Below the pieces are notes generated by a model. It worked only from the letters and a program-made list of their open reading frames with translations, did no database searches and was not told where the DNA came from. 64,000 nucleotides of DNA from Crambe crambe. Taxonomy: Eukaryota > Porifera > Demospongiae > Poecilosclerida > Crambeidae. The stretch spans positions 1,798,001 through 1,862,000 of the forward strand of contig OZ004587.1 of NCBI GenBank assembly GCA_963924555.1, written 5' to 3'. Below are positions 1,050 through 40,331 of the stretch, one piece after another. Position numbers and translations under genes: made by a program. Numbering within the stretch: the stretch's first letter is position 1; every line of letters starts with the position of its first letter.

Positions 1050-2294
1050 TTATAAAGTACGCAAGTAATCCACCACCTCACTGTGACCCTCTTCTTGGGC
1101 CAGCTGGAGTGGTGTCTGGTTGGAATTGTTCTTGATGTTTGGGGGGCAACGGGCCTGTTCAACGAGATGTTGCACTATTGCGAGATGATTGTTATATGCT
1201 GCTAAATGGAGCGGAGTGTTCTTCTGTTTGTTTTGATACGTAACGATACAATCTTTGTTTTTAGTCAGATATTGCACGACAGAGAGATGTCCAAACTGAG
1301 CTGCCAGGTGCAGAGGTGTGGATTTATCATCATCCAGAACATTGGGGTCACAGCCATGCTTCTCAATGAGGTTCTTGACAAGGTGGAGGTGACCCTTATT
1401 AGAAGCAATATGCAGTGGAGATCTTCCATTGAACCCTGGAAGATGAGGACTGCACTGCATTACAGTGATGAAGTACTCCACCACATCACTGTGACCATGA
1501 AGAGCTGCTAAATGCATTGGAGTATTGTTATAGTTATTTCTTGTAGTTGGTTTACATTTCCTATCTGCTGTGAGATATTTGACTGTTTCCAAGTGACCAT
1601 CCATTACAGCGAGATGTAGGGGGGTCTCTTGATTTGTGTCTGTAGAAGCTGGGTCACACCCACACTCCACTATCAAGTACTTGACAGTGGACAGGTGACC
1701 CTCCTGAGCAGCCATAAAGAGAGGTCCTCTACCATCCACACCATCAGGAAGGTTGGGGTCACATCCACATTCCTCAATGAGGAACTTGATGATATTGGTG
1801 TGACCCTCCAGAGCTGCAACGTGGATGGGAGGATTCTTGAACTTGTTGGGGAATGTTAAAATGTCATTTATTGACATGTGTTGCAGCATGGACTGTATCA
1901 AATGTTTGACGATTTCTAAACTACCACCTACACAGGCTATGTGTAGAGGTAAAGAACCATTTTCATTTTGGTCAAGGGGGTTGGCTTTATGCTTATCCAT
2001 TAAGTACTGGACGATAGAGAAGTGCCCTGCTCTGGCTGCACTGTGGAGAGGTGTTTCACCATGCCAGCCAGGGAGTGCATGGTTGTAGTGTAGATCCTCA
2101 GTAAGGTACTTGATCACCTCCAGCTTTCCAAATCTTGCTGCTGTATGTAGAGTTGTGTTATTACTACTATTCTTTGTTAAAGGATCGAGTCCCTTTGCTA
2201 TGAGACGTTTCACTTCTTCCAGGTTTCCTTCTTTGGCAGCATCGTGTAGGTCTGAGTTGTGCTCTGTTGTGGTTTCTACTGAGACTGTCTTTTC
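1050..2294 (-). CDS. Ankyrin-repeat exon, copy 1 (likely 3'-terminal exon of the large gene)
   Basis: The exon encodes 414 residues made of an N-terminal cap (DLHDAAKEGN) and eleven ankyrin repeats, each with a TPLHLAA-type helix start and a GH turn. No ATG begins the frame. It opens behind a strong splice acceptor (pyrimidine tract ending ACATGACAG, just above 2294), so this is an internal or terminal exon, phase 0. It ends at a stop at 1050. Upstream on the minus strand the next plausible donor in phase 0 is at 6864, which would make this array the C-terminus of the large Roc-COR/death-domain gene. Ankyrin arrays bind protein ligands through the loop tips and inner helices; those positions are where this exon differs from its duplicate at 39123-40331. 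It could instead belong to a separate small ankyrin gene whose first exon I cannot see. Confidence 0.9.
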   Translation of the reverse strand, partial: EKTVSVETTTEHNSDLHDAAKEGNLEEVKRLIAKGLDPLTKNSSNNTTLHTAARFGKLEVIKYLTEDLHYNHALPGWHGETPLHSAARAGHFSIVQYLMDKHKANPLDQNENGSLPLHIACVGGSLEIVKHLIQSMLQHMSINDILTFPNKFKNPPIHVAALEGHTNIIKFLIEECGCDPNLPDGVDGRGPLFMAAQEGHLSTVKYLIVECGCDPASTDTNQETPLHLAVMDGHLETVKYLTADRKCKPTTRNNYNNTPMHLAALHGHSDVVEYFITVMQCSPHLPGFNGRSPLHIASNKGHLHLVKNLIEKHGCDPNVLDDDKSTPLHLAAQFGHLSVVQYLTKNKDCIVTYQNKQKNTPLHLAAYNNHLAIVQHLVEQARCPPNIKNNSNQTPLQLAQEEGHSEVVDYLRTL

Positions 2295-4055
2295 CTGTCA
2301 TGTGAGAGAAGAATTCAGTGTGAACTTCAATTTCATTATGGCTTACGACTTATTATATCATACATGGGCGAGATCAAAGGGCCGCAGCAAGTCATATTGC
2401 CCCATTGTCATGTTTAATCTCCATGGAGACAAGAATGCGTGGCCACTAAGTGTCAAGGTAAAGTTACTTTACTGTAGCTAGCCTAGTCTATACTCACCTT
2501 AGCTAGCTATAGCAGGATATAAAACAAGGTACCATGGGGTTATGGATGATAACCCTCATCTTAGGGCTTATAATCCATGAAAAACAGGCACCCATGTTCT
2601 ATTACATGGAAATCTGGAAGTTTTTGAATTCATATTACAATAATGGTAAATTTTAATGATGACATCAAGTCATAATGAAGAGGTTTTATTCACATGAATA
2701 GGATCTGGAAGTTTATGGGTTGTGTCTCTATTTACAACATTGAGTTACATGAAGTACAACATTGTTTACAAGTAACAGTAATTGGAGCTTGTAATGATTG
2801 TATGTAGCTAGTGCTACACACTTCTCCTGTGCAATTAGACACAGAGATATAGCTAAAGTTAAAAAAATGGAAAAAATGGTCAGTAGGAGACTTGAACCTT
2901 CAAGTTAAACTGATTAGGGGGGGGGGGGTTCCTCATTACACAAATTTAGATATAGCATTGGATATTGTAGCCAAGGAATGCTTTATCATCTAATACCATT
3001 GTTCATGCTCCAAATAGCTAAATGTTATAGCAAAGACCCCCTCATTCCATGGCTTCTTGTTGCAAAAGGTTGAATCAATTGATTTAGTGTGTATTGGGAT
3101 AGTCGTATTTCAGAAGGCTTAATCAGACCATTGATCAATTATTCAATCAGGATGAATGTGATACAGTGATCCTGCGTCTTTTTAACCTTGTTAGAGGATG
3201 ACACCCTCTAACAGTGAACCCACCCACAATGCAACAGTAGCACAGTACTACTAGTGCTATGGAACTGCAAAGACTGATTTGCATGTATAATCAATAATCT
3301 AATATAACTAGTTCTATTAGTTCCAGACTACTTCTTGAATTAATTGTAATATAACTTCCTGATTTTCTAGTTTTTGCACCAGGCATCCAGGTAGAACCTA
3401 TTCATCGGCTGTTGTAGAGATGATCCAACAAACCTCCTCTGTATAGCTGTGTCATCTCATCCAAAAAAAATGGCTTTCTTCTTATTACACATGCAGCAGG
3501 TAAAAGAATGTAATCGAGCTTAGACCAATCAGATAACAATTACACATGATTATAGCTGACAGGCACAACATGGCTGTTATGATGTCACACATGTCACATT
3601 AAGTGATTTCAACTCTCCTGGTTTTTGTTTATTACTGTCTGTTCCAATCACTGGTCCCACATGATTATACAACTGTTCAATCAATTTTCCCAGCAAAATA
3701 ACCAGACAATGAACTTAACTCTGTTACGTACTTCCACAAATTGTACATTTGCCTGTCGTATGGGTACCAGCCAATGTTGACACAGTAATTACACATAGCT
3801 ACCTATGAGATCTCAGTGGAACAACAATGGCTGATTAAGAGATGTTTGTAGTAGTGTCTTTACACTCATGAACTTTATATACTAATTTGTCAAGGTCAAA
3901 TGTTAATTAGTTTAATTAGTGGGTGTGCTTGGAAACTATGTAGGTTATGATGAAATTCAATATCATTAACATAATCATAGTATTACCTCATGATGTTAAC
4001 CATCTAGCTGCATTGCAACCCTCATAATACTACCAGTACCTTTAGTATGGTAATA

Positions 4056-4196
4056 TGATAGTACTGGAGAAAAGGAATCTTATGTTATAAGCTGTAATTT
4101 ACTAAAGTTTACAAGCTACATACAAAATGTACGTGAGATGTCCAATACCATTTCAATAACTCAGTTTGAATCTTTCACCATAAGACAAGTATCACA
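4056..4196. mobile_element. Degraded inverted-repeat element (GATAGTACTTGAGAAAAG family)
   Basis: The left end (GATAGTACTGGAGAAAAGG) and the internal words AAAGTTTACAAGCTACATA and CAATAACTC match the intact element at 15529-15770. The right terminal repeat is decayed to ACAAGTATCAC. Confidence 0.6.
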
Positions 4197-4386
4197 GCCA
4201 TAAGGACTATTTCAAATTCATTACAGACATGAATTTATTATTAAAGCAACTGTGGAGCTTTTACTGCCAAAGATAAGACTTTTACAGGTCAAAGTGAATG
4301 CTTGGTTGATGTAACAGAATGGACAAGGAGAAAGGTCAATAGTTCTACATTCATTGTTAGTTGAAGTGAGCAAGAAAGCAAGCCAA

Positions 4387-4436
4387 AAACAAACAAATAA
4401 ACAAACAAACAAGCAAACAAACAAACAAACAAACAA
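4387..4436. repeat. CAAA simple repeat
   Basis: A run of CAAA/CAAG tetramers on the plus strand. It produces artificial open frames on the minus strand (phenylalanine/valine/cysteine/leucine repeats) that should not be annotated. Confidence 0.9.
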
Positions 4437-5003
4437 CTATGTGATTGAATTATTTCCATGATCAGCAAATGCACAGATAAGAAGAACTGATGTAACCAGA
4501 AGACTCCTGGGATAATCAGTTACTGGATATTAACCCTCAGCACATGTGCAGTACTCAGTCTGTATGTGTGTTACATCCACCACGCTGCCAGTATTGATTA
4601 GAATGTTTCAATTTCAAGCCTTGACGATGTCTAGATAATACTTTCCAGTGTTTAAATTTTATTAGAAAAAGGGAAAGAAGGGCAAGATTTCCAGCTCTGT
4701 ACCCATCTCCAGAGAGAAATTTAACACATTGATACTAAGCACTCTTAGTATGCGCTGAGGGCACTTCAGTGCTTTTCATTTTAAGAAGGTTATAGCACTA
4801 CAGTATTGGTAAGGGATCATTAATAAAAGCAGAACAAACTAGTTTTCTCTCTATGCTCTGTCAACTTTATACAAATTTGGCTTTCTTCTTGTTACAGGTA
4901 CAGCAGGTAAAAAAAAATCAACTGTTTATGTTCTAGCAGATGTAGCTACAGCTATATTCCTAACTAATAAGCATCAGTTGCCCTACATTTCAGTTCATTC
5001 ATT

Positions 5004-5603
5004 CATCTTGAATCAGAATGTTTGTGGCCAACCTCCACATGGCTAATGTTGTCATGTTAGATGGTCACATTATACTGTGTGTAGATACATAATTATGGTA
5101 CAAATATTTTTCTGTTTCTAACTCATAAGAATCAAGATGATATAATCAAACCTACAGAAACTATGATATACAACATGAAATTAAAAAATCATACAGGGTA
5201 ATGAAATCTCCGATTGCTCTCGTTTCTGTAGGTTTGTTTTCATCATCTTATGAACTACAGAAACACTTTATTTTAGAAATGGAAAAATAATTTATACCAT
5301 ATATACGTATCTACATGTGTTTATACCATATATACGTATCTACATGTGTTTATACCATATATACGTATCTACATGTGTTTATACCATATATACGTATCTA
5401 CATGTGTTTATACCATATATACGTATCTACATGTGTTTATACCATATATACGTATCTACATGTGTTTATACCATATATACGTATCTACATGTGTTTATAC
5501 CATATATACGTATCTACATGTGTTTCACACAGTACATGTGACCATCTAACACGATAATATTAGCTATGTGGAGGTTGGTCACAAACAACTCTGATTCAAG
5601 ATG
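5004..5603. mobile_element. Foldback element with about 90-bp inverted termini
   Basis: The left arm beginning CATCTTGAATCAGAATG (5004 to about 5095) is the reverse complement, with scattered mismatches and one indel, of the right arm (about 5512 to 5603), which ends CTGATTCAAGATG. A second, shorter inverted pair carrying AAACCTACAGAAAC / GTTTCTGTAGGTTTG lies inside (about 5147-5234). The centre is filled by the 29-bp tandem array. No transposase frame is present, so it is non-autonomous. Confidence 0.85.
5291..5523. repeat. Tandem array, 29-bp unit, about 8 copies
   Basis: The unit contains CCATATATACGTATCTACAT followed by GTGTTTATA and repeats about eight times essentially without variation. 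It lies inside the foldback element. There are no unique spacers, so it is not a CRISPR array. Because 29 is not a multiple of 3, all three frames read through the same peptide in rotation. Confidence 0.95.
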
Positions 5604-6833
5604 CATGGCTGGTCACTTTAAGTGGCTATATATCTGGCAGCCTGCTTGAGATACATGTAGGTATGGAGCAAATCATGTATGTACGTTTAATAAGAATTGA
5701 GCTGGATTTATTTGGCAGCAAAAAGGCAGTTGGTTGACTTCTGAGGTCATTAATGTTGATATAGTGAAATTCAATTGTTAAATACATAGCTGTGCTGGTT
5801 CAGAATACTTTTGGGGCATATACATTAGCTATATGGGTATGCATCTAACCACTTCCTTAACCCTCACTGTGTATGCGTGCAGGTACGTAAAAATCAATGC
5901 AGATACATAGGTGTATCATACAGACAAACATATACTCTACATTCAGTGAGCAAACAAGGCAAGCAAGCTGACTAACCCCTACGTAGGTCATGTCTCATTA
6001 ATTGATTGATCTAAGATCCCACATAATATACTAGGGTATGTTCGTGTAACATATTCAATCGGCAAGCGAAGCAGTTGGGCAGTGGTTGTGGCAACTACAT
6101 ACACAGGAGGCTGTATGCACCTGTATGACTAAATGCTGTAGAAAGCAATAAGCTCTAGCTGTTTGTTCTAAGTGCTAGCATGTTTCATTTGTGGGGTCAA
6201 AGGTCAAACGAACGTATGCGCATGCATATTATGAACTATTGGAGCATGCCCACTAGCTATTGATGTACCATATATACATATATCGCGAATCTCAATTAGC
6301 ATCACAAGTGTGTGGCTCGCTCGCTTCGCTCACTCGCCAATTAAACTTCCAAAAAACATAGCTGAAGTGACCAATCAAACAATTGTGAGGTAAATAAGAC
6401 ATTTTTTTTCAGGATAAATATAATACTTAATGAATTTAATAATACCTCAAGTGCATCTTTAATCGCTAAGCAATTTTTATGGGAGTTGCAAGTTACGTGA
6501 GAAGATCTCAGCTAGATCTTGTGTTGATGAATTACAGCTAGCTAGCTACGCAGTTACACTGGTTGTTGCATTTGCTATTATCTTAATCAACTGCAGAAAG
6601 TGTTTCGGGGGGGAATCAGAAATAGCTAAAGCTAGTCTCTACGAGCTGTGACCTACTGTATTCATTCAATAAGATTTCAAAGCTCTGCTGAAAGAAAAAT
6701 ATACTAAGCTACAATAGATAGCCATACTAATGTTTAGAATTCTTTGGTCATCAAGTGTTTTTCAGAGTGAAAAATTTTCTGGAATTAGTGCCTTTTAAAT
6801 GCAAAAATATTCTAATATTTAGTACCCACTGAT
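5604..6833. other. Non-coding stretch with a dispersed repeat
   Basis: No exon is supportable. About 6035-6345 is a dispersed repeat shared with 19030-19390 and 56750-57068: it opens AGGGTATGTTCGTGTAACAT, has GTGGGGTCAAAGGTCAAACG in the middle and ends in GCTCGCTTCGCTCACTCGCC. Confidence 0.6.
6035..6345. repeat. Dispersed repeat (GTGGGGTCAAAGGTCAA family), copy 1
   Basis: Three copies occur in the window (here, 19030-19390, 56750-57068), all in the same orientation, sharing the start GGGTATGTTC, the central GTGGGG(T/C)(C/T)AAAGGTCAA, an ATGCATATT-type word and the terminal GCTCGCT...CACT(C/T)GCCAAT. The copies have diverged by substitutions and indels, so the family is old. Confidence 0.8.
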
Positions 6834-6863
6834 TTAAGGTATTTCTAAACAATTATTACTTAC

Positions 6864-6901
6864 AAGTGTTTTACTGAGCATCTTCGATTCCTTCGTGCTT
6901 T
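6864..6901 (-). CDS. Small 38-bp exon near the 3' end of the large gene
   Basis: The acceptor (AAATTATACAG before 6901) lies 68 bases past the previous donor, a typical short sponge intron. The exon takes up the phase-1 codon and ends at a consensus donor (CTT then GTAAGT) in phase 0, which fits the ankyrin exon at 2294. If that donor is skipped the frame ends ten codons later at 6834, giving an alternative short C-terminus without ankyrins. The encoded peptide is short, charged and not recognisable. Confidence 0.5.
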
Positions 6902-6969
6902 CTGTATAATTTTTCAAAGAATTCAGTCAATGTGCATAAGTCAACAGCAATGTTGAATGTGAAACATAC

Positions 6970-7240
6970 CAGTTTCTGGGGATGGAGGAAGAATCTCCAC
7001 CATATGCCAATGGATCCAATGGGTCTTCCCTCCCAACCAAGCCCATTCAAACTGGGCATGTGGTCCGAAGAATCTAGATTGCTTGAATATCCCAATGTCT
7101 CCCTTGATAATGGACTTGTAGTCATCAATTGCTTGTACTTTCATCCCTGGCTTCAAGGTGGACTTGACGTACTTCCCATAGTCACCATCATTGTTGTAGT
7201 CCTCACGTTTCTTGTATGGACTCACACTCCCTTTCCCCTT
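6970..7240 (-). CDS. SH3/CPH-like beta-barrel domain exon
   Basis: The exon encodes about 90 residues. After a lysine-rich lead (KGKGSVSPYKKRED) comes a compact domain with the pattern PGMKVQAIDDY, KGDIGIF, QFEWAWLGGKTHWIHWHMVEIL. An alternation of GD(I/F)G, a hydrophobic W strand and a closing W-H-M-V-E-I strand is what SH3-like barrels of the MIB/CPH/HERC2 group look like, so I call it that tentatively. Such domains bind proteins in ubiquitin-ligase and signalling assemblies. The borders are an acceptor ending ATTCAG at 7241 and a donor GTATGT at 6969. The exon begins in phase 0 and ends in phase 1. Confidence 0.7.
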
Positions 7241-8408
7241 CTGAATAGATTATTAATAATTATGTGTAATGTAAGATGGTGCGGACACAATGATGCATCA
7301 TGACAACAATATTCTGCACACACTTAAAGATGCAATCCAAACCCTCCAGATAAAAAATCAACAACAAAAAACAACTTACTAATCATTATTATTACCACAT
7401 AAAGATTGATCGTCTACCTTGTCTACCTCTTCACATCAAAGCAAATTGAAATATGACACTGAATCAAAGATGAGCTAATTAACATTGCTCATATGTGAAT
7501 TAGGACAAAGTGCATTATGCTGGCATTATTTTGAGCATAGTAATCTATTAAAGGAAGAAGCATTATGTGGTTACTAGGCTATGCTCTATCCATGATTCCA
7601 TATAGCTAGTTTGACTAATGTTCAGTTTACAGATTTCAAACCTGACATGCTTGTCATCTCGGATTCCTATCAAGTTATGGGATATTAGCTGTACCTATAG
7701 CTTACACTATCTTACTAGCTGAGCAAGTAAGCAGAGTTTATAGTTGACATACACAATGTACATTGAAATAGTACATGGTATGCTGGTTTAGTATTTGGGT
7801 TGGTGAGCAGAGCTCCATGCCAAGGCTCTGAGTCTTCACAGACACTAGTGAAGAAAGCAATCAGTTATAAAGCCAAAGGATTTCTCCTCTGCCAATGATC
7901 TTCTCTGACTCAAGGACAGCTGAATACTTTTTATTTTCCCAAAAAATGTATAATCATCTACGTACTCAACTCTCAGTCAAAATCTGTCGGAAAAAAACTA
8001 CTGGTTCCTGATTATATTATTGGTTATAGAGAAATGTATCTGAGTCAACATAATAAGAAAAAAAGTGATTATCTTTCCCTGAAATGTTATCGCAGACATC
8101 ATGACATACTAGAAGATAAAACAGTGTGATACTTCCACTCCCTAAGATAAGTTATGCTTTATTTTTTCTGTTTTATGCTCCACCAGTATACAAGCAGTCA
8201 TGTTTTGAAATGCTCATATCTGTGAATATAAGTATATAAGTAATTATGGGTCCACATGTCACATGATATTGCAGTTCACTAACTACTTCTCTACAGTGTG
8301 ATTAAATGGACGGAGAGAGCATAATCTCCAAGAAAATAAAATACTCACCTGGAATAAATCTAACCATAAATAATTTCCCCTTAATGAATGAACTGTTCAC
8401 TATCTCAC
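7241..8408. other. Intron of the large gene
   Basis: AT-rich DNA between two phase-compatible exons. No further exon, RNA gene or clear transposon was recognised on either strand. Confidence 0.6.
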
Positions 8409-8470
8409 CTGTGAATCCTGAATTATAGGAGCAGATGAAGATGTGTCAGGATTCTCTTGAGCTGCAGGAA
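8409..8470 (-). CDS. Linker exon, 62 bp
   Basis: This short exon encodes a Pro/Ser/Thr/Gln-rich linker (VPAAQENPDTSSSAPIIQDSQ with the shared first codon). It connects the second death domain to the SH3-like exon. Acceptor TTATTTATAG and donor GTGAGA are both clean, and it converts phase 1 to phase 0 as the neighbours require. Confidence 0.6.
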
Positions 8471-8537
8471 CTATAAATAATAAGATAATGAATGTTCCAA
8501 ATGGAGCTAGTTGAAGTTACCAAAATCTTTTATGTAC

Positions 8538-8774
8538 CTTGATTCAACACTTGATGCACTTGATTCCATTCAGGATTGGCAGTATTCGTAAACCACCACT
8601 CCACAACTTTCCTCAAGGCAACTTGATTGTCTCTTCGGGAAGACACATTGATGACATCTATGGCTGAACTAGGTACACCTAGTGAAGATGCCACCACAAT
8701 CCACTTGTCAGATAACTGAATCAAAACATTAACAGCATTTGAGACTGTCAGGGGCTCTCGATACTTTTCACCAC
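8538..8774 (-). CDS. Second death-domain exon
   Basis: About 79 residues read as a death-fold helical bundle: DKWIVVASSLGVPSSAIDVI, then a Asn-containing turn, VALRKVVEWWF and PEWNQVHQVLNQ. The spaced W...LGV...I...N...AL..V..WW...W..V...L pattern is characteristic of death domains, which recruit partners by homotypic contact in apoptosis and NF-kB-type signalling. It follows the second Roc-COR unit and is preceded by GGEKYREPLTVSNAVNVL, which would form helix 1. The acceptor at 8775-8776 and the donor GTACAT at 8536-8537 agree in phase with both neighbours. Confidence 0.85.
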
Positions 8775-8841
8775 CTACATGAAGAAAATCTTTGATAATA
8801 GAGATTGAGGAAATTAAAATTTATGACTAAGAATAATTTAC

Positions 8842-10785: not shown

Positions 10786-10884
10786 CTGTAGGAGGAAAAC
10801 AAGACAAATGAACAGTCATAGATTATTTTTTGTATATATTTTTTAAGTAAGTACATACTGTTATGCATACACTTAAAAACTCAC

Positions 10885-12762
10885 CATGAGACTTTTTAGA
10901 AGCTGTTTCACTTCTGAACCAAATCAGTTCTGACTTTTCAAGTTCATTTGATAGTCCATTACTGCACTCACATACATCTGATTCCAAAGTTAACTTCTTT
11001 ATCGAGTAGAAATGTTTAGCAGTTGATGAGCAGCTTTCATTCTTGCAGGCTAAGGTTATATCAAATTCTCTCTTTTCTAGCCAACGTGGAACTATTCGCT
11101 GGAGCTGAACATTTAATGTAGACAAAATATGATAGTAGATATCTTCACTCAAGTTAGCATTGTCATAAGAAACACAGTCGACTCGAATATGGTGGGAGAA
11201 TTCAGTTAATATCACATGCATGCAATCATTGATTATAAACTCAAACTGATTTCTGCAGGATTCAATACACTCTTTGCTGTAATTGAGAGGAATCCTCCAT
11301 CTTGTGTTGCCGTAAGTAACTCCAGCCAATGCAGTCAACAGTCTGGTGAAAACACCAGTGGCAATGTATCCAGATTCTGGAACTATGTAGAGAGGAGATA
11401 CGTCTCCATTCAACTGCTCCAATGCACTTCCATATTCCTCCTTTATGGGCAGTATTGAAGGAATGAAGTAGCAAATCTCTTTTCCTGAAAAATTCACTTT
11501 CATGCTCAGATGATGCTCTTCTAGGAATTCCATGAACCAGTGGTCGTCCAATTTAGTTGGTTTCCTGTCGAGAAGGTACCTGTAAAAACTCATTGATACA
11601 ATTCCTTTTATAGTCAGCTTGCTCCATTCAGCTTTCAGAGATCTTGGATCATAGCAAAACAGAGTTCCAAGGACTTGCAGCAAGGCTTTGGGATCTATGA
11701 CAACAAAGTTTCTCATCGTCCTTCTCTCTGACAGATGGTGCCACATGAACACACCTAGTTCATGGAAATACACCAGGGCAGCATTAGGTTCATTGACATG
11801 ACATTTGTTCTTGCCGATGGAAATGGCTTCATCCAAGGGAATAATGCCAATGTTGACATACTCAGTGTAACACATTCGTTGAAGTGCCAGTTTGAATGCT
11901 TGCCACGAGCGAGGGATTTCAGATCTTGAGTCCTTGGCACATGATGATATGGTGTTTCGAAGGGACTCGATTCCCGAATTGCTTTTTTTGTCAGGTGTTT
12001 TACCTGACTTGGTGTTGTCCACCTCATGAATGTAAGACTCGCCTTGTTCTAGTACAGTATAGAGTGACAAATCACTTCTGTACTTCTTTGCAAATTTTCC
12101 AATGGCTTCATCTAGAGCATCTTTCTTGTCTTGGAGTGAATTACCCTCAGAAAGAACTGCTTGATCTTTGCACGTCCCAACAACAACCGCTGCAGTGGAA
12201 AATCTCTGGGAATCTCGAGACTTAACTTGTGGTGGTAAGTTCTCCATTTTCTTCTCTACACTGGATGAGAAGGCTTGGACAAAAGATAAGTTGCGATACA
12301 TGATGTCTCGATTGGTGAAAGGAGATGAAGCTGGTTCCAAGAAAGATTTGCATGGTCGGATTTCTGGCTTATTGTCGAACTTTTCCAAGTCGCTCAAACG
12401 GAACACTATTCCATACATGCACTTTAGTCGTGCAAAGCAAGGCAGTAGATCTTGGAATATCGGTTGACCTCCAGTGTCCCACATTGTGAGGAAAACTTTA
12501 CTTTGACAGTCACTGGGTAGATCCAGTAATGGCTTGAAGGCACTTCCAGCAACAGCTGTCATTGATTCCCGATAGAGGAACTCAGGTTGCATGACTATTG
12601 TGGGAGTCTCATTGTCATCTATCGGTTGGTCTTTGAGATGTTTTCGGAGACTTGTTTTGCCAACTCCAGTGTGGCCTATCAGTATGACATGAATTTGGAC
12701 TTCATCTTCTACAAGATCACTATCAGAAATTTTTACCAAGCCAATCCATGTCTTTTCTGTCT
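10885..12762 (-). CDS. Roc-COR GTPase exon
   Basis: The exon encodes 626 residues. It opens (gene residue about 892) with the P-loop GHTGVGKTS, followed by the switch-II motif WDTGGQP (about 957) and the G4-type VVVGTCKD (about 1056). These are the signatures of a Ras-of-complex (Roc) GTPase. From about exon residue 290 comes a COR-type region with winged-helix features (KGIVSMSFYRYLL, HHLSMKV, CYFIPSILP), then a Cys-rich tail (CKNESC, CECSN). Roc-COR proteins (ROCO family: LRRK2, DAPK1, MFHAS1) are GTP-switched, dimeric signalling scaffolds; this one appears catalytically competent, unlike its downstream copy. The acceptor TTTTTATAG lies just above 12762 and the donor GTGAGT at 10883-10884; phases fit. 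Cytosolic location is inferred. Confidence 0.9.
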
Positions 12763-12864
12763 CTATAAAAAAAGAAAATTATAATTATCTACACCTTTAC
12801 TTTAATCAACACTGATCTATTTCTTAAGTACGAATATTAATTAGCTAACTTTCAGTTAACTTAC

Positions 12865-14496
12865 CCAGTAAGTGCTGAAGTTCATCTGTTAGAATTGAGT
12901 AGGAGGCTGGTCTTAATCGAGAGTCTTTAGATACCCATTTCTGTTCGAAAATATTCTTCAGCAAATGATTATCTGGAAGTTGAATATCGGTAGTAATATT
13001 ACCACGTGAAAATATTGAAAATATAATCTCCTTCATCCATAGCAGGTCGTCATGTGATAATGTTTCAGAAGTTGAAGATGACTGTTCACCAATGAATGAC
13101 TGATCATAGACAGGGATAAGTTTTGCTTCCATCTCAGCAGCATTTTTGTGAATGAATATATTGTCCATCACTACCTTTACCTTTTGGTTGAGGTTTTCAA
13201 ATCTGCTCATGCAACTTGAAATACTCGTCAGAAGTGATAACTGATTGACTTCCGATTCTCCATAATAATTGGAAGAGGAGGAAACTTCTTTCAAAGGCTC
13301 TAATTTCTCAACAATTACTGCTGGATATTTCTTTTGCCCTTCCTCCCCTGTTGGTGGGTAATACAATCCCTTGATTGATGGAACTTCTTTGTGATCTCGA
13401 ATCAAGACCTCAAGGTATTTGATATACCCTGCATCCACTGTGGATTCTTCAGTGAATTGATCAGGATACACGAGAGCCATACACTCTTTGCCTTGATGTT
13501 TGGCTGTTACCATCTTACTTTGTTTCTCATGTAAATGTGATTTTTTCACAGGTGAGTCTGGAGTCTCTAGTGTGACATCTGTTAGCATCTTCCAGTGCTT
13601 CAGCATCACCTCACGTTTCTCAAACTTGTAGGATTGAACGCATTTGTCCTTGATTGCTTTTAGTTTCCTTGGAAAGAGGGGTATGTTCTCTAAACGTTGC
13701 AAGCCATCACAAGGTATTTGAAGGCAAATTATTAGACTTCCTGTTTCAGCTCGATGTATTAGTACATTAGCAGGCTTTATGTCTAAAAGTTTGCTCAGAA
13801 AAAGCTTGAAATCGTTCAGTTCATTAATTTCATGTACTGGTTGATTGGAATCAATCACGAATACAACTTTGCAGTGAGTTTTGATATCTGCAGAAGAAAA
13901 GTTCTGACCGCATTCATAAATTCTGCATTTTGCATATCTTTTAAATGCTTTGACATAGTCTTGGGCTTTTTCCTTGTCTTCTGCAGTTCCAATCTTTCCT
14001 ATAATATCTTTTACAAAAAAGTTGAAATTCATGTAAGATTGATGTTTAAAAATAAGCTGCAAAAGTTGCTCTGAGTCTTTATTCTTCTCGATTTCATTCA
14101 TTGTAGCTTTATCAAAGGCAAATATGGCTGATGCTCTAAACAGCCTATTGAATTCTCTATTAGCATTTTCTCTACTCATAAAAGATTCCCAAAAGTCTTC
14201 AAATAAAGTGAGAAAATGCGATGTGATTTTATTTGTTTCGTCTCTCAACATTGCTACATAGAGATGATAATCATCGCAAGTAGGTGGCCATGTGGGTGGT
14301 TTTGTATGTGGCACAACTGAAGTTTCTTCTGATGACTTTGCACTACTGTTTCTTTCAGTGTGTGAAGGTTTATCTGGAGAGACATTAAGGGAAGAATGTT
14401 TTGTTTCAGTGACAGTGCTGCTGTCAGGCTCCTCCACAGAACTGCTTTGGTTTGAGGTAGCAAGTTGTACTTTGGAGGGTGGAGCAGATGAGGTAG
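12865..14496 (-). CDS. Helical module plus pseudokinase-like region
   Basis: The exon encodes about 544 residues. The first ~65 are Ser/Thr/Pro/Glu-rich linker. About residues 70-195 form a helical block (VAMLRDETNKITSHFLTLFE, FRASAIFAFDKATMNEI, YVKAFKRYAKCRIYECGQNF) that I recall from sponge Roc-COR proteins but cannot name. A small alpha/beta block follows (KVVFVIDSN, DFKLFLSKLLDI, SLIICLQIP). The last ~200 residues look like a degraded protein-kinase fold: DNIFIH sits where the catalytic loop asparagine would be, KLIPVYDQSF replaces DFG, and SRLRPASYSILTDELQHLL matches the RP motif and last helix of tyrosine-kinase-like domains. No VAIK lysine, HRD or DFG is visible, so it would be catalytically dead. 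Acceptor just above 14496, donor GTAAGT at 12863-12864. Confidence 0.75.
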
Positions 14497-15528
14497 CTAT
14501 AAGATCAGAGCAAACATTTAATATACTCAATTGTATTATCTATTAGACTATAGCTACGTACTATGCTGTTATAATGGAGAGTGTGAGGATTCTAAATCTC
14601 TTAGAGTCCCTCTGTGGAGAGACTCTACATATAGAATCCACCCTCATGGGCATAATAGAATCCACCCTTTATGCTATTAGAGTTTGTTTCGTATACAGGT
14701 TCAAAAAGGAAGAAAATAATGAAGTTATAGCTATAGCAATAGCTGTTAGTGTAGTTATTGATGCTAATATTCGTACGTAGAAGAACACCTGGTAAAGCTA
14801 AACCAAGCAAAACACTTGGTAGGAGGCAGATTATTATTGAAGGCAGCATAATTTTGATTTTTGTTGACAGAAACTGTTAAAGTACAGACTAACCCTACAT
14901 GGCCTTTTTATTTAGCATACTTTTTTTTTTTACTATACCAGTCAGTTCAGATCTGCATACTCAGCCCTCTTAAAAATCTCTTTAAAATATTCCATCCATA
15001 ATTGTAATGCTTCAAAAGAGTATATATAAGTTTTAATTTTCACAATTTCTTTTATTGCAATGAATCTGAAAGCTAGCATGAAGAAGTTAGTCCCTTAAGG
15101 GTGGTCAGACATATGTATGCTCATGCATGGTTGCTAAGGATATGCCAGGGTTGGCTAATTACCATTATTGTTTGTCTGTAATTAAGTCTGTAGAAGATTA
15201 GCCCTAGGGTTGGGCAATATGGGGAGTATTCAGTTCTTGGCGTATATGTACCAGCTATCTGATTGGTCAGTTACCCATGGTATTCAATGGCACTATTCAA
15301 TGCCTTCTTTATGCATGCACAGACTAGCCTAGTAACGTTTTTGGCTGACATTTCCGAAGATTATAGGCAAGCCTACAGCAGTTTATCTTAGTTGTTTGTA
15401 GGTACTACGTAGGTCTGGTAGGCTGCTAGGTACTTCATTGATAAGCATTACAGGTTCGTATTGCAGCTTCCCACGCATTTTCAGCCGCTTGGCTGGAAGC
15501 AACTGTAGAATCCACCACATAGCAATAA

Positions 15529-28350: not shown

Positions 28351-28474
28351 TACAGTGACCACATAAAAATATCAAATCCACGAAATTTCTACCCCACGAA
28401 AATTTCCTGCTATGCTATGGATAATATTCATGGAAATTCTCTACCTGTTAACTTGTGTACATTATGACTGTTAG

Positions 28475-32671: not shown

Positions 32672-32732
32672 ATGGTTAGTTGGTGCAGCTGTGAAGAAGG
32701 CCACTGAGATATTACAGCTCAATACTGACAAG
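32672..32732 (+). pseudogene. Talin helix exon, repeat unit B3
   Basis: Contains GAAVKKATEILQ after an ATGGTTAG start that introduces a stop; shortened relative to the other units. Confidence 0.55.
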
Positions 32733-33118
32733 GTATGCACACATCAAACAAATATCTTAAAATAGTCTATCCCCAGCCTTCAGGGTTTCATGAATTGAAT
32801 TGAGGCATGATCCCCATGTCTGTGACTCCTTCACTTTCTTACTCTATCTGTCAGACCACTTGTATGGTATCTGTGCTGTATGTAGAAAGGTTTATTAGTA
32901 TAAAGGCAAATTTATTTTCTATTGGTGACATTTGCTGCAGTAGTTGCTGACTATTCCCAAGGACATGGCAATTGCTTTAGGATCGAGATCTGATAGGCAC
33001 ATGCCACTCGTACTGCCACGGGCAAGAAAGTGTCCAGGACCCTACCTTGGACAAACTGAAGACGTCTGTTAATTAAGGTTTGTATGCATGCTTCTGATAT
33101 GATCCACTATAATGATAA

Positions 33119-34748: not shown

Positions 34749-34830
34749 GTGGTGCAGCTGTGAAGAAGGCCACTGAGACATCAGTGAAAGCAACTCAACA
34801 AGTCTTTGCCAATGTAACTCTACTAAGATA
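34749..34830 (+). pseudogene. Talin helix exon, repeat unit B4
   Basis: GGTGCAGCTGTGAAGAAGGC is shared with the other units; the frame reads AAVKKATETSVKATQQVFAN and then decays, with the donor altered to GTATAT. Confidence 0.6.
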
Positions 34831-34839
34831 GTATATGCC

Positions 34840-35060
34840 ACAGAGTATGTGTAGTATCCCACTGGGATGGGCAAACTATCACAGGTATCCATAGATACTC
34901 TGCCAGTGGGTATATATATGGGGAGTATCCCAGTAGTATCCAAGGAGTATCCTGGAATGGGTGTCACAGAGTATGTGTAGTATCTCCTGGGATATGTGAA
35001 GTATCCCAGCAGTTATCCACAGATACTCTACTAATGTGTACACATATGACCAATTGGCCA
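34840..35060. repeat. GGATACT-rich degenerate repeat cluster 2 (inverted)
   Basis: AGTATCC(C/A) words run in the opposite orientation to the cluster at 30940-31400. Confidence 0.75.
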
Positions 35061-35339
35061 CCTGGATGCACCAATACGGGATGTCCCCTCTGGACTATAC
35101 ACCAGCACAAGTTAAACAGCTGGAAATAAGTTTGTACACATACGTATTATACCTTGCTTTGCCCATTCCAGGATACTCCTGGGATACTCATACCCACTGG
35201 CAGAATATCTATGGATACCTGCCCATCCCAGTGGGATACTACACATGCGTACTCTGCAGCACATGTATGTATCTTTAAGTTTGCTGGAGATTTGACTGAG
35301 GCCAACTGTTATTATTTTCCCTCTCCTCTGTACATGTAG

Positions 35340-35438
35340 CATGCAGATGAAGGCAGATTCTTGAAGTGGTTAAGAATATTGCTAGGGAAGAGCAAGCTCA
35401 GCTGCAACCCCAAATCAGAGGATGGACTCATCTCAGCT
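35340..35438 (+). pseudogene. Talin exon with ILEVVKNIA
   Basis: Follows a CATGTAG acceptor. ILEVVKNIAREEQAQLQ resembles talin ILEAAKSIA; the 3' part contains a frame change before the donor GTGAGT. The end SEDGLISA, readable in another frame, matches the talin GLISA segment. Confidence 0.6.
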
Positions 35439-35595
35439 GTGAGTAGATACAAGTATTGTTTATTGAATTAATTTGTTGTAGTTTGTTTGTTTTGATAGTG
35501 AAGAATGAGTTGTTATTACTAGTTGGTTGGCAGTTGTGACTATGTAAACTCTTATTATGCAATTGGTGTGATTAGGTATTGTTTTGCGTGTGCAG

Positions 35596-35749
35596 GCTAA
35601 GCTGGTTGCCAGTGTTATGTGAAGCTGCCAATGGAGTGGTGCAAGGTCAGGCTCAGGGATAGTGGCTATCAAGGCTGTTGCCTCTCCTCTACTGCTCAGC
35701 TGCTCAATGCCTATCAGGTGAAGGCTGACGGAACAACAGGAGATTACAG
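35596..35749 (+). pseudogene. Talin exon C2
   Basis: Same exon as C1: after GTGTGCAG it reads AKLVASVM then a stop (TGA). CEAANG(V), STAQLLNA and VKADG survive in shifted frames. Donor GTACAT retained. Confidence 0.68.
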
Positions 35750-36069
35750 GTACATACTCATAACACAATTTTGTATAGTATACATGCGATATGCATGAGT
35801 TGTATAAGAGGAATAATACATGTCTGATGACCCCTTACCAATTATAAAGAAAATTCTTTTTGGGGCATTTCAAGGTCTAAAAATGAGTAGAATTGATCAA
35901 AATTGCAGCAAGGAAATTATCCAGTAAATTGGCCTCATATGTTTCCAGAAACTTAATAGATTCATTCAAAGAGGTAGGCACAACCTTACTATTGAATTCC
36001 CTCTCCATTAATACAAAAGTGCAGCCCTACCCCTATCCTATGTGTTTTAACAATGTGTTTATACTGTAG

Positions 36070-36138
36070 ATGACTGATGTAGCTGTGAAGAAGACCACTA
36101 CCATCAATGTAATTGATGAAGATACTACTGAGATCAAG
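36070..36138 (+). pseudogene. Talin helix exon, repeat unit B5
   Basis: The ATGACTGATGTAGCTGTGAA start becomes M then TDVAVKKTT when read in frame. The unit has lost about 20 bases in the centre. Donor ATCAAG-GTATAT kept. Confidence 0.55.
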
Positions 36139-36496
36139 GTATATACGTATGTGTACATTAAACAAACCTCTTAAAATTCCAGCTGTTCAACTTGTGCTGA
36201 AGTATAGTCAACCTCCAACTTTCCTTAATCTAAGGGGACACCCCTCATCAAATTTATCAGTGGAGGTACTTACCCAATTACCCTTTCATACATGTGGAAT
36301 ACTTTGCTCCTTGGATACTACACAGCATGTCCCCATGTTCCCTGCTGGCAGAGTATCTATGGTTACCAGGATACTCCTGGGATACTACACATACACTGTG
36401 GTGTATTCCCACATAACCTCTGTATATGTGTTTATGATTGGGGATGGAGTTTTGACTGTCTCAATTCAAATGAGTGGATGGTTTTTGTGTGTGCAG

Positions 36497-36652
36497 GCTA
36501 AACTGGTTGCCAGTGCTAGGAGCAATCTGTGTGAAGCTGCCAATATGGAGTGGTGAACAGTATAATGGCTACCAAGACTGTGGCCTCTCCTCTACTGCTC
36601 AGCTGCTCAATGCCTGTCAGGTGAAGGCTGATGGAACAACAGGAGATTACAG
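36497..36652 (+). pseudogene. Talin exon C3
   Basis: The best start of the three copies: AKLVASARSNLCEAANMEW then a stop (TGA); STAQLL and VKADGTTGDY persist in another frame. C2 and C3 are nearly identical over their last 70 bases, including the GGAGATTACAG-GTACAT border. Confidence 0.7.
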
Positions 36653-36845
36653 GTACATACTCACAACACAATCTTGTACAGTACATATAATTATGTGACT
36701 GGTACTTGTTTGATGACCCCTTACCAATCCATAGATTTAGATTTACTTGTCATTGGAAGTTGTTGCAAAAGGGTAGGCACAACCTTGCTATTTGATCTCC
36801 TTCCCTTAAATTCAAAAAGCCTATAGTCCTGTCCCATGTGTTTGG

Positions 36846-37603
36846 CCTCGGCACCAAAGTGCCAAGGTGCAGTGCTGGAAGCGACTATGGTGGTACGTAC
36901 GTTTCACGCGCACGAGCAATGATGCACGATGATGCGTGTCACGTGCATTAATTTAGCTCTAGCTAGCTAGACATACAGTACTAAAGATAAACAGACAGGC
37001 TCAGGCTCGCAGTCACTATGCGATAACTCTAGTGCTGATGCTTCTTGGCCGTCTTTGCCAACAATCAAGCCCATTATCACATGCAGAAAACTGACTAGTG
37101 ATCGTTTGAAGTGTCAAAGAGAGAGCCATGGTGAAGGAGAATCTCAAAACTAAGACTTTTGAGGCTTCCAAACAATGAGAGAATCCAGTACACATACAAG
37201 CTATGCTTGAGAATAACCATTAAACGGCAGTTCCAAATGGTTCAACAGCAAGAATACTGTGTAAATACTAATCTTACTACAATATAAGCCATGTTGCTCA
37301 GTGCGCATTATTTGGAACTCTCCACAGAAAAAAAGCTGAGAGAAATATTTTGGCAACATTTTGTAGAAACATTTGACCCCACAAACCCCTGCATTTTTAA
37401 TTATTTATGCCCATGCAGCAAGTATTCAGCAATTCCAAACATAATCATCCTTGTAGGACTCTGGCTTCAAGCTGGTGATCCCTCAGTGTATCTTTATCGT
37501 CTCTTATATACCACTGTCACGTCATATTCACTGTAAAGCATTTAAAATTAAAATGAAATAGCTAAATTTAGAAAGTTAAAAGTTGCACTGAAGTGCCGAG
37601 GCA
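36846..37603. mobile_element. Inverted-repeat element (CCTCGGCAC termini)
   Basis: Left end CCTCGGCACCAAAGTGC and right end GCACTGAAGTGCCGAGGC are inverted. It is followed by TAGTCTTTTTAAAAGACTAA, a palindrome also present at about 26730 beside a related end. The interior holds an 81-codon frame (37291-37536) of unknown nature, VEHLL-type features absent. Confidence 0.65.
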
Positions 37604-37651
37604 TTCCTAGTCTTTTTAAAAGACTAACTTGTTAACATGTTTTTTCTGGTG

Positions 37652-37724
37652 CAGCTGTGAAGGCCACTGAGACATTAGTGAAAACCTTTGCCAATGTAAC
37701 TGACGATGATGCTACTATGACAAG
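37652..37724 (+). pseudogene. Talin helix exon, repeat unit B6
   Basis: GTGCAGCTGTGAAGGCCACT lacks one AAG relative to the other units; ends TGACAAG-GTATGC. Confidence 0.58.
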
Positions 37725-37912
37725 GTATGCACACATTAGACAAACTTCTTAAAATTAGAACTACTGACTCTAATAGTCCACCCCCAAACTTCCTTAATCA
37801 GAGGGGACATTCTCATTAAATTCATTCGATGACCCTTTACCAATCAATGAGGTCTCGGACTATGATGGAGAAGGTGACGTAACTCTAGATTCTTCCCATT
37901 TCCATGGTTCAG

Positions 37913-38035
37913 GTGAAGGGGTGTGTGATGGAGGATTTGCTGGAGGTGCAGGAAAGGATGACTAAAATGCAGTGAAAGCCAAGGAGTAGTTGTACAACAT
38001 CCAAAAGGAGAGAGTCAAGCACTAAGCCACACTCA
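37913..38035 (+). pseudogene. Talin final exon remnant
   Basis: VKGCVMEDLLEVQERMTKMQ followed by a stop; KAKE, LYNIQKERVKH are readable beyond it in other frames. This matches the talin C-terminal helix pattern (VKEKMVGG...IAAQEEML). It ends only about 35 bases before duplication copy 2. Confidence 0.6.
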
Positions 38036-38067
38036 TCCCCTCAACATTATAGATTATCTTTGTATCA

Positions 38068-39122
38068 TTAATACATTTCTTTGTGGAACTGCTAGTAATA
38101 ATTGTAGTGATGCTTTTTTGATGTTTGTTTTGTTTTGTTTGAGAAAGTATTGATGATTTCCTCATTGCAATCGTTAGCTGATAACTGTCTATAATTATTA
38201 TGTTGTCTCTCAAAGAAATGAAAATGAAACCTTCCAAATACCACCAAAGGGTCTACTCTGCTGTCAATTCTCTGGCCAGCACTGCTCCCATAGCTGCAAC
38301 CACAGTCCACTCCATTTACCCAAGAATGAACAATGGATGCTTCTCTAATCTCTACTGCTTTAATCTTCCACTGTGGTATTTATATCTCTATGATAAAGTC
38401 TTTCTAATTACATTGTGATTAAGATGTTCCTCAATCAACACCCAATTATGATAATTATGACAAAATTTGTCACCAAATTAAAAATAATTATTGGAACCAA
38501 AATGATTAGGTTTTAATTCCGCTTCAACATCATCTCCAAAACTATAAGGTATTTAATTAGAGGGACATCCTTAACATTAAAATGATATTGGTATACAGAG
38601 GGACTGCAGTATGAACACAGCAGAGATTAGAGGGACATACTCATTGGGATTAAGTTATTTTCACAGTGGAGATCAGAGACATCTTCTTACATTAATTAAT
38701 TTGCTGAATATCACAATAGTACAATTTCTTGTAAAGATTATTATTATATGCCACTTGAATGGATTATATTTTGAGTTTAGATTAGAAGGACTTCCTCATT
38801 AGGATATCAAGACAATTTCTGAGTAAGGTGATAATTATGATAGTCTTTGATAATGAAGCGCTGTCCAACAGTTAGTGCCAAAACTTTCAATTAACCACCA
38901 TTGATAAGAAAATTAATTATTAAAATATTTTAAATATTCACAAGCAAAATATTTAGAATGAGTGGGAGGTACAAAGTAAACTAAAGGAAAGGAGTGAAAA
39001 ATGAAATGGCATAAACAAAACAGTTGCATATATACAAATAAAATAAAACTGTGAAAGGTGAAGTAAAATTAGAATAGAATATCATGGAACATTATAAAGA
39101 TAAAGAGTAGGAAAGTTAATGT
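38068..39122. other. 3' flank of ankyrin copy 2
   Basis: Near-identical to 1-1049. No gene supported. Confidence 0.6.
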
Positions 39123-40331
39123 TTATGAAGTACGCAAGTAATCCACCACCTCACTGTGACCCATCGCTTGGGCCAGCTGGAGTGGTGTCTGGTTGGAATC
39201 GTTCTTGATGTTTGGGGGGCAACGGGCCTGTTCAACGAGATGTTGCACTATTGCGAGATGATTGTTATATGCTGCTAAATGGAGTGGAGTGTCTTTCCTG
39301 TTTTGATATGTAACGATACAATCTTTGTTTTTAGTTAGATGTTGCACGACAGAGAGATGTCCAAACTGAGCTGCCAGGTGCAGAGGTGTGAAATTATCAT
39401 CATCCAGAACATTGGGGTCACAGCCATGCTTCTCAATGAGGTTCTTGACGAGGTGGAGGTGACCCTTTTGTGAAGCATCATGCAGTGGAGATCTTCCATT
39501 CCACCCTGGAAGATGAGGACTGCACTGCATTACAGTGATGAAGTACTCCACCACATCACTGTGACCATAAAGAGCTGCTAAATGCATTGGAGTATTGTTC
39601 TTGTTATTTCTTGTAGTTGGTTTACATTTCCTATCTGCTGTGAGATATTTGACTGTTTCCAAGTGACCTAACTGTGCAGCGAGATGTAGGGGGGTGGCTT
39701 GATTCGTGTCTGTAGAAGCTGGGTCACACCCACACTCCACTATCAAGTACTTGACAGTAGACAGGTGACCCTCCTGAGCAGCATAAAAGAGAGGTCCTCT
39801 ACCATTCAAACCACCAGGAAGGTTGGGGTCACATCGACATTCCTCAATGAGGTACTTGATGATATTGGTGTGACCCTTCAGAGCTGCATTGTGGATGGGA
39901 AGACTCTTGCGTTTGGTGGGGAATGTTAAAATGTCATGCATTGACATGTGTATTTTCATTGACTCTATCAAATATTTGACGACTTCTAAACTGCCACCTT
40001 TACAGGCCCAGTGTAAAGGTAAATAACCGTCTCCATCCTTGCCAAGGGGGTTGGCTTTATGCTTGTCCATTAAGTACTGGATGATGGAAAGATGTCCACA
40101 TTGAGCTGCATAGTTCAAAGGAGTAGTTCCGTGCCAGCCTGGAAGTGAAGGGTCACAGTGTAGATCCTCAGTAAGGTACTTGATCACCTCCAGCTTTCCA
40201 TTGATAGCTGCTATGTGTATAGCAGTATCATCGTAACTGTCCTTTGACAAGGGATCGACTCCCTTTGCGATTAGACGTTTCACTTCTTCCAGGTTTCCTT
40301 CTTTGGCAGCATTGTGTAGGTATGTCGTTTC
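39123..40331 (-). CDS. Ankyrin-repeat exon, copy 2
   Basis: The exon encodes 402 residues: cap (YLHNAAKEGN) and eleven ankyrin repeats, paralogous to 1050-2294. It starts behind the same acceptor (CACATGACAG above 40331) in phase 0, but the lead before the cap is 12 residues shorter. Relative to copy 1 about 68 of about 387 aligned residues differ, mainly just before TPLH and at the two residues before the GH turn, e.g. LNYAAQCGH against LHSAARAGH and LHDASQKGH against LHIASNKGH. Repeat backbones and the outer helices (HLETVKYLTADRKCKP, HSDVVEYFITVMQCSP) are identical. No stop or frameshift interrupts it, so it is likely functional. Its upstream exons are uncertain; a phase-compatible coiled-coil exon is at 47503-47655. 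Confidence 0.9.
   Translation of the reverse strand, partial: ETTYLHNAAKEGNLEEVKRLIAKGVDPLSKDSYDDTAIHIAAINGKLEVIKYLTEDLHCDPSLPGWHGTTPLNYAAQCGHLSIIQYLMDKHKANPLGKDGDGYLPLHWACKGGSLEVVKYLIESMKIHMSMHDILTFPTKRKSLPIHNAALKGHTNIIKYLIEECRCDPNLPGGLNGRGPLFYAAQEGHLSTVKYLIVECGCDPASTDTNQATPLHLAAQLGHLETVKYLTADRKCKPTTRNNKNNTPMHLAALYGHSDVVEYFITVMQCSPHLPGWNGRSPLHDASQKGHLHLVKNLIEKHGCDPNVLDDDNFTPLHLAAQFGHLSVVQHLTKNKDCIVTYQNRKDTPLHLAAYNNHLAIVQHLVEQARCPPNIKNDSNQTPLQLAQAMGHSEVVDYLRTS

Follow-up and report, generated by a model that had tools for sequence, protein, structure and literature searches.

Two ankyrin-coding exons on one stretch of sponge DNA raise the question of how a protein surface can change while the DNA next to its gene remains almost the same. 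The stretch, here called the window, comprises 64,000 nucleotides of Crambe crambe (contig OZ004587.1, positions 1,798,001 to 1,862,000), and its two paralogous exons are referred to as exon A and exon B (Table 1). A sequence-only reading had noticed that they differ mainly at positions which contact ligands in ankyrin proteins, and had proposed diversifying selection or targeted conversion of a recognition surface. The present analysis found that both exons belong to a hypervariable repertoire. Its many paralogues have a constant scaffold, and positive selection is concentrated on the predicted ligand face.

The limits that had been given to both exons hold, with one open frame in each. The product of exon A consists of an N-terminal cap and 11 ankyrin repeats (Pfam Ank_2, 4.7e-83), which are tandem helix-turn-helix units with the TPLH and GH motifs. 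Its predicted structure has a pLDDT of 94.6. The 3' splice site is ACAG/GAA and the first codon is in phase 0 (acceptor judged by eye). Exon B has the same acceptor and phase and lacks 12 codons relative to A, of which 11 belong to the 5' end and 1 is internal.

The window lies within contig C10 of a 143-Mb assembly. By its mitochondrial COI, the genome is probably that of a demosponge: among named records a Demospongiae cluster is closest (87%), ahead of named cnidarians (82–85%), while records without a species name reach 89–90%. The assembly was searched for the ankyrin exon. At least 124 matches were obtained with 101 of 1546 candidates scored. A hand count on the same scored candidates gave, as a lower bound, at least 90 places with a query span of at least 325 residues and at least 50% identity. 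They are located in four clusters and at some places outside them (Table 1). Clusters II and III are 56–64% identical to exon A. Forty-five exons were analysed. Eight of the 12 loci retrieved from cluster I were used (L017–L019 were dropped as longer repeat-number variants and L020 as truncated), together with 21 of the 28 loci retrieved from cluster II (L042–L048, partial or extended, were dropped) and all 16 from cluster III. The 23 places of cluster IV on contig C9 were left out.

Variable positions and selection

The repeats were registered on TPLH, and the proportion of non-synonymous differences (pN) was determined for each repeat position. In clusters I, II, and III, in this order throughout, pN was 0.43, 0.32, and 0.35 at position 10, 0.38, 0.25, and 0.30 at position 13, and 0.37, 0.28, and 0.27 at position 14. 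The values were 0.28, 0.34, and 0.19 at position 3, 0.29, 0.16, and 0.27 at position 5, and 0.18, 0.20, and 0.13 at position 2. The remaining positions scored ranged from 0 to about 0.12. Position 10 had the top value in clusters I and III and the second in cluster II. When the register was rotated per repeat, the observed value was reached 0 times in 2000 for each of five position sets. The six positions of designed ankyrin repeat proteins (DARPins), 2, 3, 5, 13, 14, and 33, had been fixed before the test, and position 10 was added after viewing the alignment. Position 33 was low (0.07–0.12), and neither 26 nor 33 was strongly variable. Positions 2, 3, 5, 10, 13, and 14 are therefore called hypervariable here, which makes 66 columns per protein. 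All 11 repeats contribute, the last one least in clusters II and III. Any two analysed copies of one cluster differ in at least 24, 20, and 18 of the 66 columns.

In the predicted model of the exon A product, the variable positions map to the loop and the inner helix. The ligand face was assigned from the helix positions in this model and from the literature on ankyrin binding surfaces. The randomised positions of DARPins sit on the concave surface (PMC8229355).

A codon model with classes fixed beforehand was fitted on four local trees per cluster, which were built from all codons. The ratio of non-synonymous to synonymous rates (omega) was 3.25, 2.53, and 2.34 at the DARPin six, 7.28, 4.26, and 4.12 at position 10, and 0.51, 0.43, and 0.33 in the rest of the exon. 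An omega of 1 was rejected for the DARPin six and for position 10 in all three clusters (p ≤ 4e-16). A coarse fit with 11 local trees in clusters II and III gave 2.45 and 1.73 for the DARPin six, 3.48 and 3.48 for position 10, and 0.42 and 0.25 for the rest. A site-wise grid test (FUBAR-like, own implementation, four trees) placed 9 of 403, 36 of 404, and 39 of 400 sites above a posterior of 0.9. Of these, 9, 25, and 27 fall at the six hypervariable positions, and the sites elsewhere are 11 of 36 in cluster II and 12 of 39 in cluster III. The diversifying selection on a recognition surface that the sequence-only reading had proposed is supported family-wide, by omega above 1 at the named positions across 45 paralogous exons, and not by the contrast between exon and flank.

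Relaxed constraint was considered as another cause. The positions 2, 3, 5, 10, 13, and 14 would then be the structurally least important ones and would drift neutrally while the scaffold is conserved. That they map to the loop and inner helix in the predicted structure is consistent with this. So is pair counting, a cruder method, in which pN/pS of the DARPin six was only 0.88, 1.01, and 1.41, with the values of the first two clusters close to 1. However, neutral drift cannot exceed an omega of 1, and the class model gave 2.3–3.3 and 4.1–7.3. Pair counting also placed position 10 above 1 in all three clusters (2.39, 1.44, and 2.24). The helix-B positions 18, 21, 25, and 26, which we take to be solvent-exposed, stay low nevertheless (pN 0.03–0.10). 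Relaxed constraint is quite an unlikely cause of the pattern.

Apart from the pair counts of the DARPin six, several points weigh against positive selection of this strength. Omega is biased upward by recombination, and the local trees merely lessen the bias. Fits on trees without the variable codons were discarded, as they did not move from the initial values or yielded a likelihood ratio below zero. The 11-tree common-scale fit was discarded for cluster I, where the omega of the rest was an implausible 1.78, along with unstable trees without variable codons. The whole analysis covers one genome.

The non-synonymous codon differences also bear on the source of the changes. Those with two or three changed bases amount to about 52, 43, and 42% at the variable positions versus 25, 28, and 28% elsewhere. 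This would suit an active mutator or retro-element system that alters just the variable codons. Same-residue four-fold differences at variable codons versus others were 0.120 versus 0.124 in cluster I, 0.180 versus 0.106 in cluster II, and 0.030 versus 0.093 in cluster III. The excess in cluster II speaks for such targeted hypermutation and against selection as the only cause, but cluster I shows none and cluster III the opposite. The lack of a consistent silent excess at variable codons argues against a local mutator. In addition, most states in the cluster-II pairs with recent flanks are common to other copies and not private. Targeted hypermutation is thus a very improbable source of the variation.

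Separate histories of exon and flank

The alignment of exons A and B gave 73 residue differences in 403 columns, close to the roughly 68 in 387 that had been counted by eye, and the residue examples quoted at that time are present in it. The differences follow the register that had been described: 35 of 65 columns differ at repeat positions 2, 3, 5, 10, 13, and 14 versus 37 of 337 elsewhere (Fisher p = 1.7e-13). The near-identity of the flanks stood on one side only. In the 3' flanks, 7 of 1046 aligned bases differ (0.67%; about 8 in 1050 by the earlier count), plus 3 gaps totalling 12 bases. The 5' introns are not nearly identical. BLAST matched a single stretch of 147 bases at 90%, and other alignments add short pieces. 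The 5' intron of A matches those of loci L010–L013, and that of B matches L015 and L018–L020. Exons A and B have in common the exon, the 3' flank, and little besides.

Silent sites of the two exons have diverged as well. The differences at 44 of 266 synonymous sites correspond to a dS of 0.187, against a dN of 0.113. The claim of selection from this pair alone could not be upheld, since dN/dS is 0.60 overall and silent divergence is greater than non-silent divergence. The four-fold differences number 13 of 41 in the N-terminal third, 2 of 55 in the middle, and 5 of 59 in the C-terminal third, and 5 of 891 in the 3' flank. The middle and C-terminal thirds, taken together, still have a higher silent divergence than the flank (7 of 114 versus 5 of 891, p = 1e-4). 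Therefore, exon and 3' flank have separate histories. Because the silent sites of the exon are diverged and the 5' introns are of different lineages, the flank contrast indicates recombination and was rejected as a gauge of selection. A crossover or conversion gave A and B one common 3' flank.

It may be asked whether recombination explains the whole pattern, with a breakpoint in the exon, a recently homogenised 3' flank, and an omega above 1 that is inflated by wrong trees. The different 5' intron lineages beside a common 3' flank agree with such an artefact, as do the peak of A–B silent divergence in the N-terminal third and the significant pairwise homoplasy index (PHI). The artefact accounts for the flank contrast but not for the register, which is seen again in clusters II and III with their 56–64% identity to exon A. 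It also leaves unexplained why non-synonymous change tracks the register and same-residue silent change does not. In the more similar part of A and B (residue index ≥140), 21 of 32 residue differences lie within 48 hypervariable columns out of 275. An artefact of this kind is unlikely.

Recombination among the paralogues was seen in the exons. The PHI test on all exon sites rejected a single tree in clusters I, II, and III (0 of 1000). Among the 210 pairs of cluster II, 11 have 3' flanks that differ by less than 5%. Their exons differ by 7.7% at four-fold sites versus 10.8% in the other pairs, and by 42% versus 46% at variable residues. In these 11 overlapping pairs, both states are present in other copies for 172 of 237 silent and 213 of 294 variable-position differences, as expected if tracts were copied between paralogues. 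The exons of L033 and L039 have 360 identical nucleotides with 3' flanks 22% and 5' flanks 6.5% apart. Those of L032 and L038 have 237 identical nucleotides with 3' flanks 43% and 5' flanks 6.0% apart. Neither length was reached in 2000 simulations (0 of 2000 each). Copies with near-identical 3' flanks carry exons mixed with the sequence of other paralogues. Of the targeted conversion suggested earlier, conversion itself is retained in the form of mosaic tracts across the exon, and nothing shows targeting to the variable codons.

Some results speak against extensive exchange. At third positions outside the variable codons, the PHI signal holds for clusters I and III and is gone in cluster II (224 of 1000). 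Both flanks are less than 5% apart in one pair only, L021 and L039 (0.6% and 4.4%), and its variable residues are 42% different. Exon and flank distances in cluster II remain correlated (Mantel rho 0.38–0.66), so the decoupling is only partial. In six pairs of cluster I, just 92 of 206 variable-position differences have both states elsewhere, and this lower share implies that mutation contributes as well.

Loci of unusual length were found among the copies. L020 (C10:2153000-2162900) has a 3' flank 98% identical to the window and an exon frame of only 158 codons, and is apparently a copy with an internal deletion. The longer frames of L017 (505 codons), L018 (476), L046 (537), L047 (657), and L048 (651) are still open, apparently through internal repeat duplication. 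They are apparently a sign of unequal crossing-over within the exon.

A probable germline repertoire and its candidate upstream modules

The repertoire, the position pattern, the omega above 1, and the mosaic exons are observed, and they are best explained by a germline repertoire of ankyrin recognition domains in which ectopic conversion reshuffles the sequences and selection acts to diversify the ligand face. We consider this explanation probable. Exons A and B would be two of about 90 arrayed exons, each coding for about 11 ankyrin repeats that form a stiff scaffold, whose buried residues and outer helices would be kept by purifying selection. Six positions per repeat, at the loop tips and the inner helix, would be under positive diversifying selection, and each analysed copy would thereby present a different surface. 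New surfaces would arise by duplication, by conversion over short tracts (stretches of identity measure about 130 to 360 bp), and by crossing-over in and around the exon. Conversion and crossing-over would partly decouple the exon from its flanks, and point mutations at the variable codons would then be retained by selection. One type of recognition exon would be used with different 5' modules, namely a Roc-GTPase gene for the A type and a coiled-coil exon for the B type.

The repertoire probably serves the intracellular recognition of diverse ligands, as a set of immune or self/non-self receptors. The ligands would be bound by the concave face inside the cell and are presumably microbial or allogeneic. 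The immune role has indirect support from the fungal NLR-like ankyrin repeats, which are selected at the same face, and from sponge ankyrin genes induced by microbial patterns. In Aplysina aerophoba, two ankyrin-repeat genes were strongly up-regulated after exposure to microbial patterns (PMC6208332).

Table 1. Features of the window, and places of the ankyrin exon in the assembly
Feature	Position	Strand	Remarks
Exon A	1050..2294	minus	terminal coding exon, single open frame, 414 codons + stop
Exon B	39123..40331	minus	paralogue of A, single open frame, 402 codons + stop, Ank_2 1e-81
Span of hypervariable positions 2, 3, 5, 10, 13, 14 in the 11 repeats of exon A	1089..2168	minus	repeat anchors, per-position pN, site tests
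Positions 2–14, first six repeats of exon A	2130-2168, 2028-2066, 1926-1964, 1806-1844, 1701-1739, 1599-1637	minus	
Positions 2–14, last five repeats of exon A	1497-1535, 1395-1433, 1293-1331, 1191-1229, 1089-1127	minus	
3' flank of exon A	1..1049		full-length match at 93–98% in four further cluster-I places
3' flank of exon B	38068..39122		aligned with 1-1049
CPH/Cul7 frame	6944..7249	minus	domain ~6986-7207; PF11515 1.1e-17; PARC CPH structure 2juf 1.4e-20
Candidate 3' exons of the A-type Roc gene	8408..8778	minus	segment, then short linker with phase-0 donor
Roc GTPase open reading frame	10823..12778	minus	PF08477 6e-10; 8.5 kb upstream of exon A, same strand
N-terminal open reading frame of the Roc gene	12845..14539	minus	no recognised family
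Candidate coiled-coil exon, B-type gene	47503..47655	minus	51 codons, phase 0 at both ends, donor CAA/GTAAGT
Cluster I	C10 1.36–2.22 Mb		at least 10 places
Cluster II	C10 0.15–1.25 Mb		at least 36 places
Cluster III	C10 4.1–4.5 Mb		at least 16 places
Cluster IV	C9 0.30–0.57 Mb		at least 23 places
Outside the four clusters			at least 5 places

The coiled-coil exon may be spliced to exon B. Its in-frame phase-0 GTAAGT donor is kept in 3 of 3 copies examined. Besides the one at B, six genome copies were found. All have a cluster-I ankyrin exon downstream of them, three at a distance of 6–7 kb with both exons on one strand, and the remaining three at 14–33 kb.

The Roc and CPH modules may be spliced to exon A. 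Four other cluster-I ankyrin exons have a relative of the Roc GTPase at 94–95% (one in pieces of 90–94%) about 10–12 kb upstream. Each of these four relatives has at least one in-frame stop within the matched stretches, which counts against the explanation above; the stops may come from introns or from decay. The COR domain was not detected by Pfam in the Roc open reading frame (ORF) of the window, and PF16095 is precomputed for many homologues of this ORF. Downstream of it, the segment in 8408–8778 has a sub-threshold match to the Death domain (E 0.069), and a distance of 6 kb separates exon A from the phase-0 donor at 8408, both being on one strand. The CPH/Cul7 frame lies between the Roc gene and exon A and is conserved in L010 and L015. 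Its likely exon end, the donor CTG/GTATGT at 6969, is in phase 1 and is mismatched to the phase-0 acceptor of exon A, so a direct joining of the two was rejected. On further contigs, three ORFs fuse ankyrin repeats with a Roc-like GTPase (P0003, P0009, and P0042), and only P0042 is above the Roc cut-off.

A block of about 80–90 nucleotides at about 2735–2830 is almost identical in A- and B-lineage copies of cluster I and shorter in L020, and a GTAA-like site follows it in most. It was rejected as an exon upstream of A, as its likely donor, by eye, does not join the ankyrin frame. The block may be a regulatory element or a non-coding exon.

NACHT and Death domains were also dropped as partners of the arrays: no NACHT domain was among the matches listed in the four ankyrin clusters (genome-wide search, 103 of 232 candidates scored; NB-ARC was not searched), and no Death domain was among those listed in the ankyrin arrays (genome-wide, 150 of 965 candidates scored). 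Both results were counted against the explanation given above. Further large clusters of Roc, Death, and NACHT frames were seen on C1, C8, C9, C18, and C21. The genome thus appears to hold very large intracellular receptor-like families.

The spacing of the loci raises a Dscam-like alternative, in which the exons would be alternative terminal exons or cassettes of fewer 5' genes and not one gene each. Exon A and L013 share a strand and are separated by 5.5 kb; the sole nearby Roc among the matches listed is upstream of both. The acceptor is ACAG or ATAG in all 12 aligned cluster-I loci, with phase 0 by eye, and the median neighbour spacing in cluster IV is only 11 kb. Against this, the median spacing is 23 kb in cluster II and 24 kb in cluster III, which is space for full genes, and coiled-coil exons are near some B-type copies. 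Sharing of 5' genes on this scale is improbable.

Some features in the surroundings were recorded in addition. On the minus strand of the window, 58271-58750 and 59654-59998 contain Fibronectin III-like frames and Ig-like ones, the latter weak and below the cut-off, which may come from another gene of adhesion type. ORFs on the plus strand at about 50900-53550 resemble, by eye, gag and RNase H pieces of a long terminal repeat retrotransposon, with a strong GC skew. At cluster-II loci such as L021, a block on the opposite strand about 1.2–1.5 kb upstream of the ankyrin exon is 96–99% conserved in 13 aligned copies. By eye it encodes a K/E-rich coiled coil on that strand, and is perhaps a transposon or a divergent gene.

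Comparison with known systems

The closest known case is found in the ankyrin repeats of fungal NLR-like (STAND) proteins such as Pa_3_8560 of Podospora anserina. Their positively selected and variable sites lie, with one exception, on the inner helices and beta-hairpin loops of the concave face, and they vary in repeat number, with recombination suspected both among repeats and among loci (PMC4986451). The sponge exons resemble this description in the ankyrin recognition domain, in the selection at the same face, and in the repeat-number variants (476–657 codons in L017, L018, and L046–L048). Unlike the fungal proteins as described there, they are in an animal genome and have no NACHT domain among the matches listed in the arrays. 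Furthermore, the variation here is between paralogues at fixed positions, whereas there it is among near-identical repeats in one gene. When exon A was compared with normal-length copies in a shifted register, the repeats were about 32–40% identical, far from the more than 85% identity within one protein that marks the fungal type.

DARPin libraries have a constant ankyrin scaffold with randomised positions 2, 3, 5, 13, and 14 (33 is also listed), and position 10 is fixed. The sponge exons are similar in their constant scaffold and in the variation at 2, 3, 5, 13, and 14. In contrast, they are natural, position 10 is among the two most variable in every cluster, and 26 and 33 are not strongly variable. 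The position set of the sponge exons is therefore not that of the DARPins, in which 33 varies and 10 is constant.

The leucine-rich repeats of plant NLRs are likewise coded by gene clusters and have a diversified solenoid surface. The sponge arrays agree with them in both respects and differ in being made of ankyrin repeats. Roc is the nucleotide-binding part near some sponge copies, and none was found for others, unlike in plant NLRs and in sponge NLRs (Yuen et al. 2014, as cited in PMC4986451). With ROCO proteins (Roc-COR) there is a likeness in the Roc GTPase domain of the ORF neighbouring exon A and in the ankyrin–Roc fusion ORFs. The differences are that COR was undetected by Pfam in the ORF of the window and that a CPH/Cul7 domain is nearby.

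A constant solenoid with a selected ligand face and recombination is known from plant NLR leucine-rich repeats and lamprey VLRs. The logic is thus already known, also from the fungal NLR-like repeats. What is new is the occurrence in an animal, the use of ankyrin repeats as the scaffold in large arrays of genes, the variation between paralogues at fixed repeats, and the Roc/CPH or coiled-coil neighbourhood. No report of hypervariable sponge ankyrin arrays was found in the open-access literature, as judged by titles and the openings of abstracts. Sponges manage the dense symbionts they live with and also reject tissue that is foreign. Which receptors give enough diversity for this is a long-standing question. 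A concrete candidate is this large repertoire of ankyrin domains, whose predicted ligand face has an omega above 1. More tentatively, and with somewhat less than even confidence, we propose a combinatorial DARPin-like germline repertoire of about 90 exons, with 66 ligand-face codons each, which would be attached to two or more intracellular modules, one of them Roc-GTPase/CPH and another the coiled coil. Such a repertoire would act in immune or allogeneic recognition and, built on an ankyrin scaffold, would be the equivalent in an animal of plant NLR leucine-rich repeats or lamprey VLRs. If this is true, natural evolution varies nearly the same surface as the DARPin engineers do, plus position 10 of the inner helix, which they left fixed.

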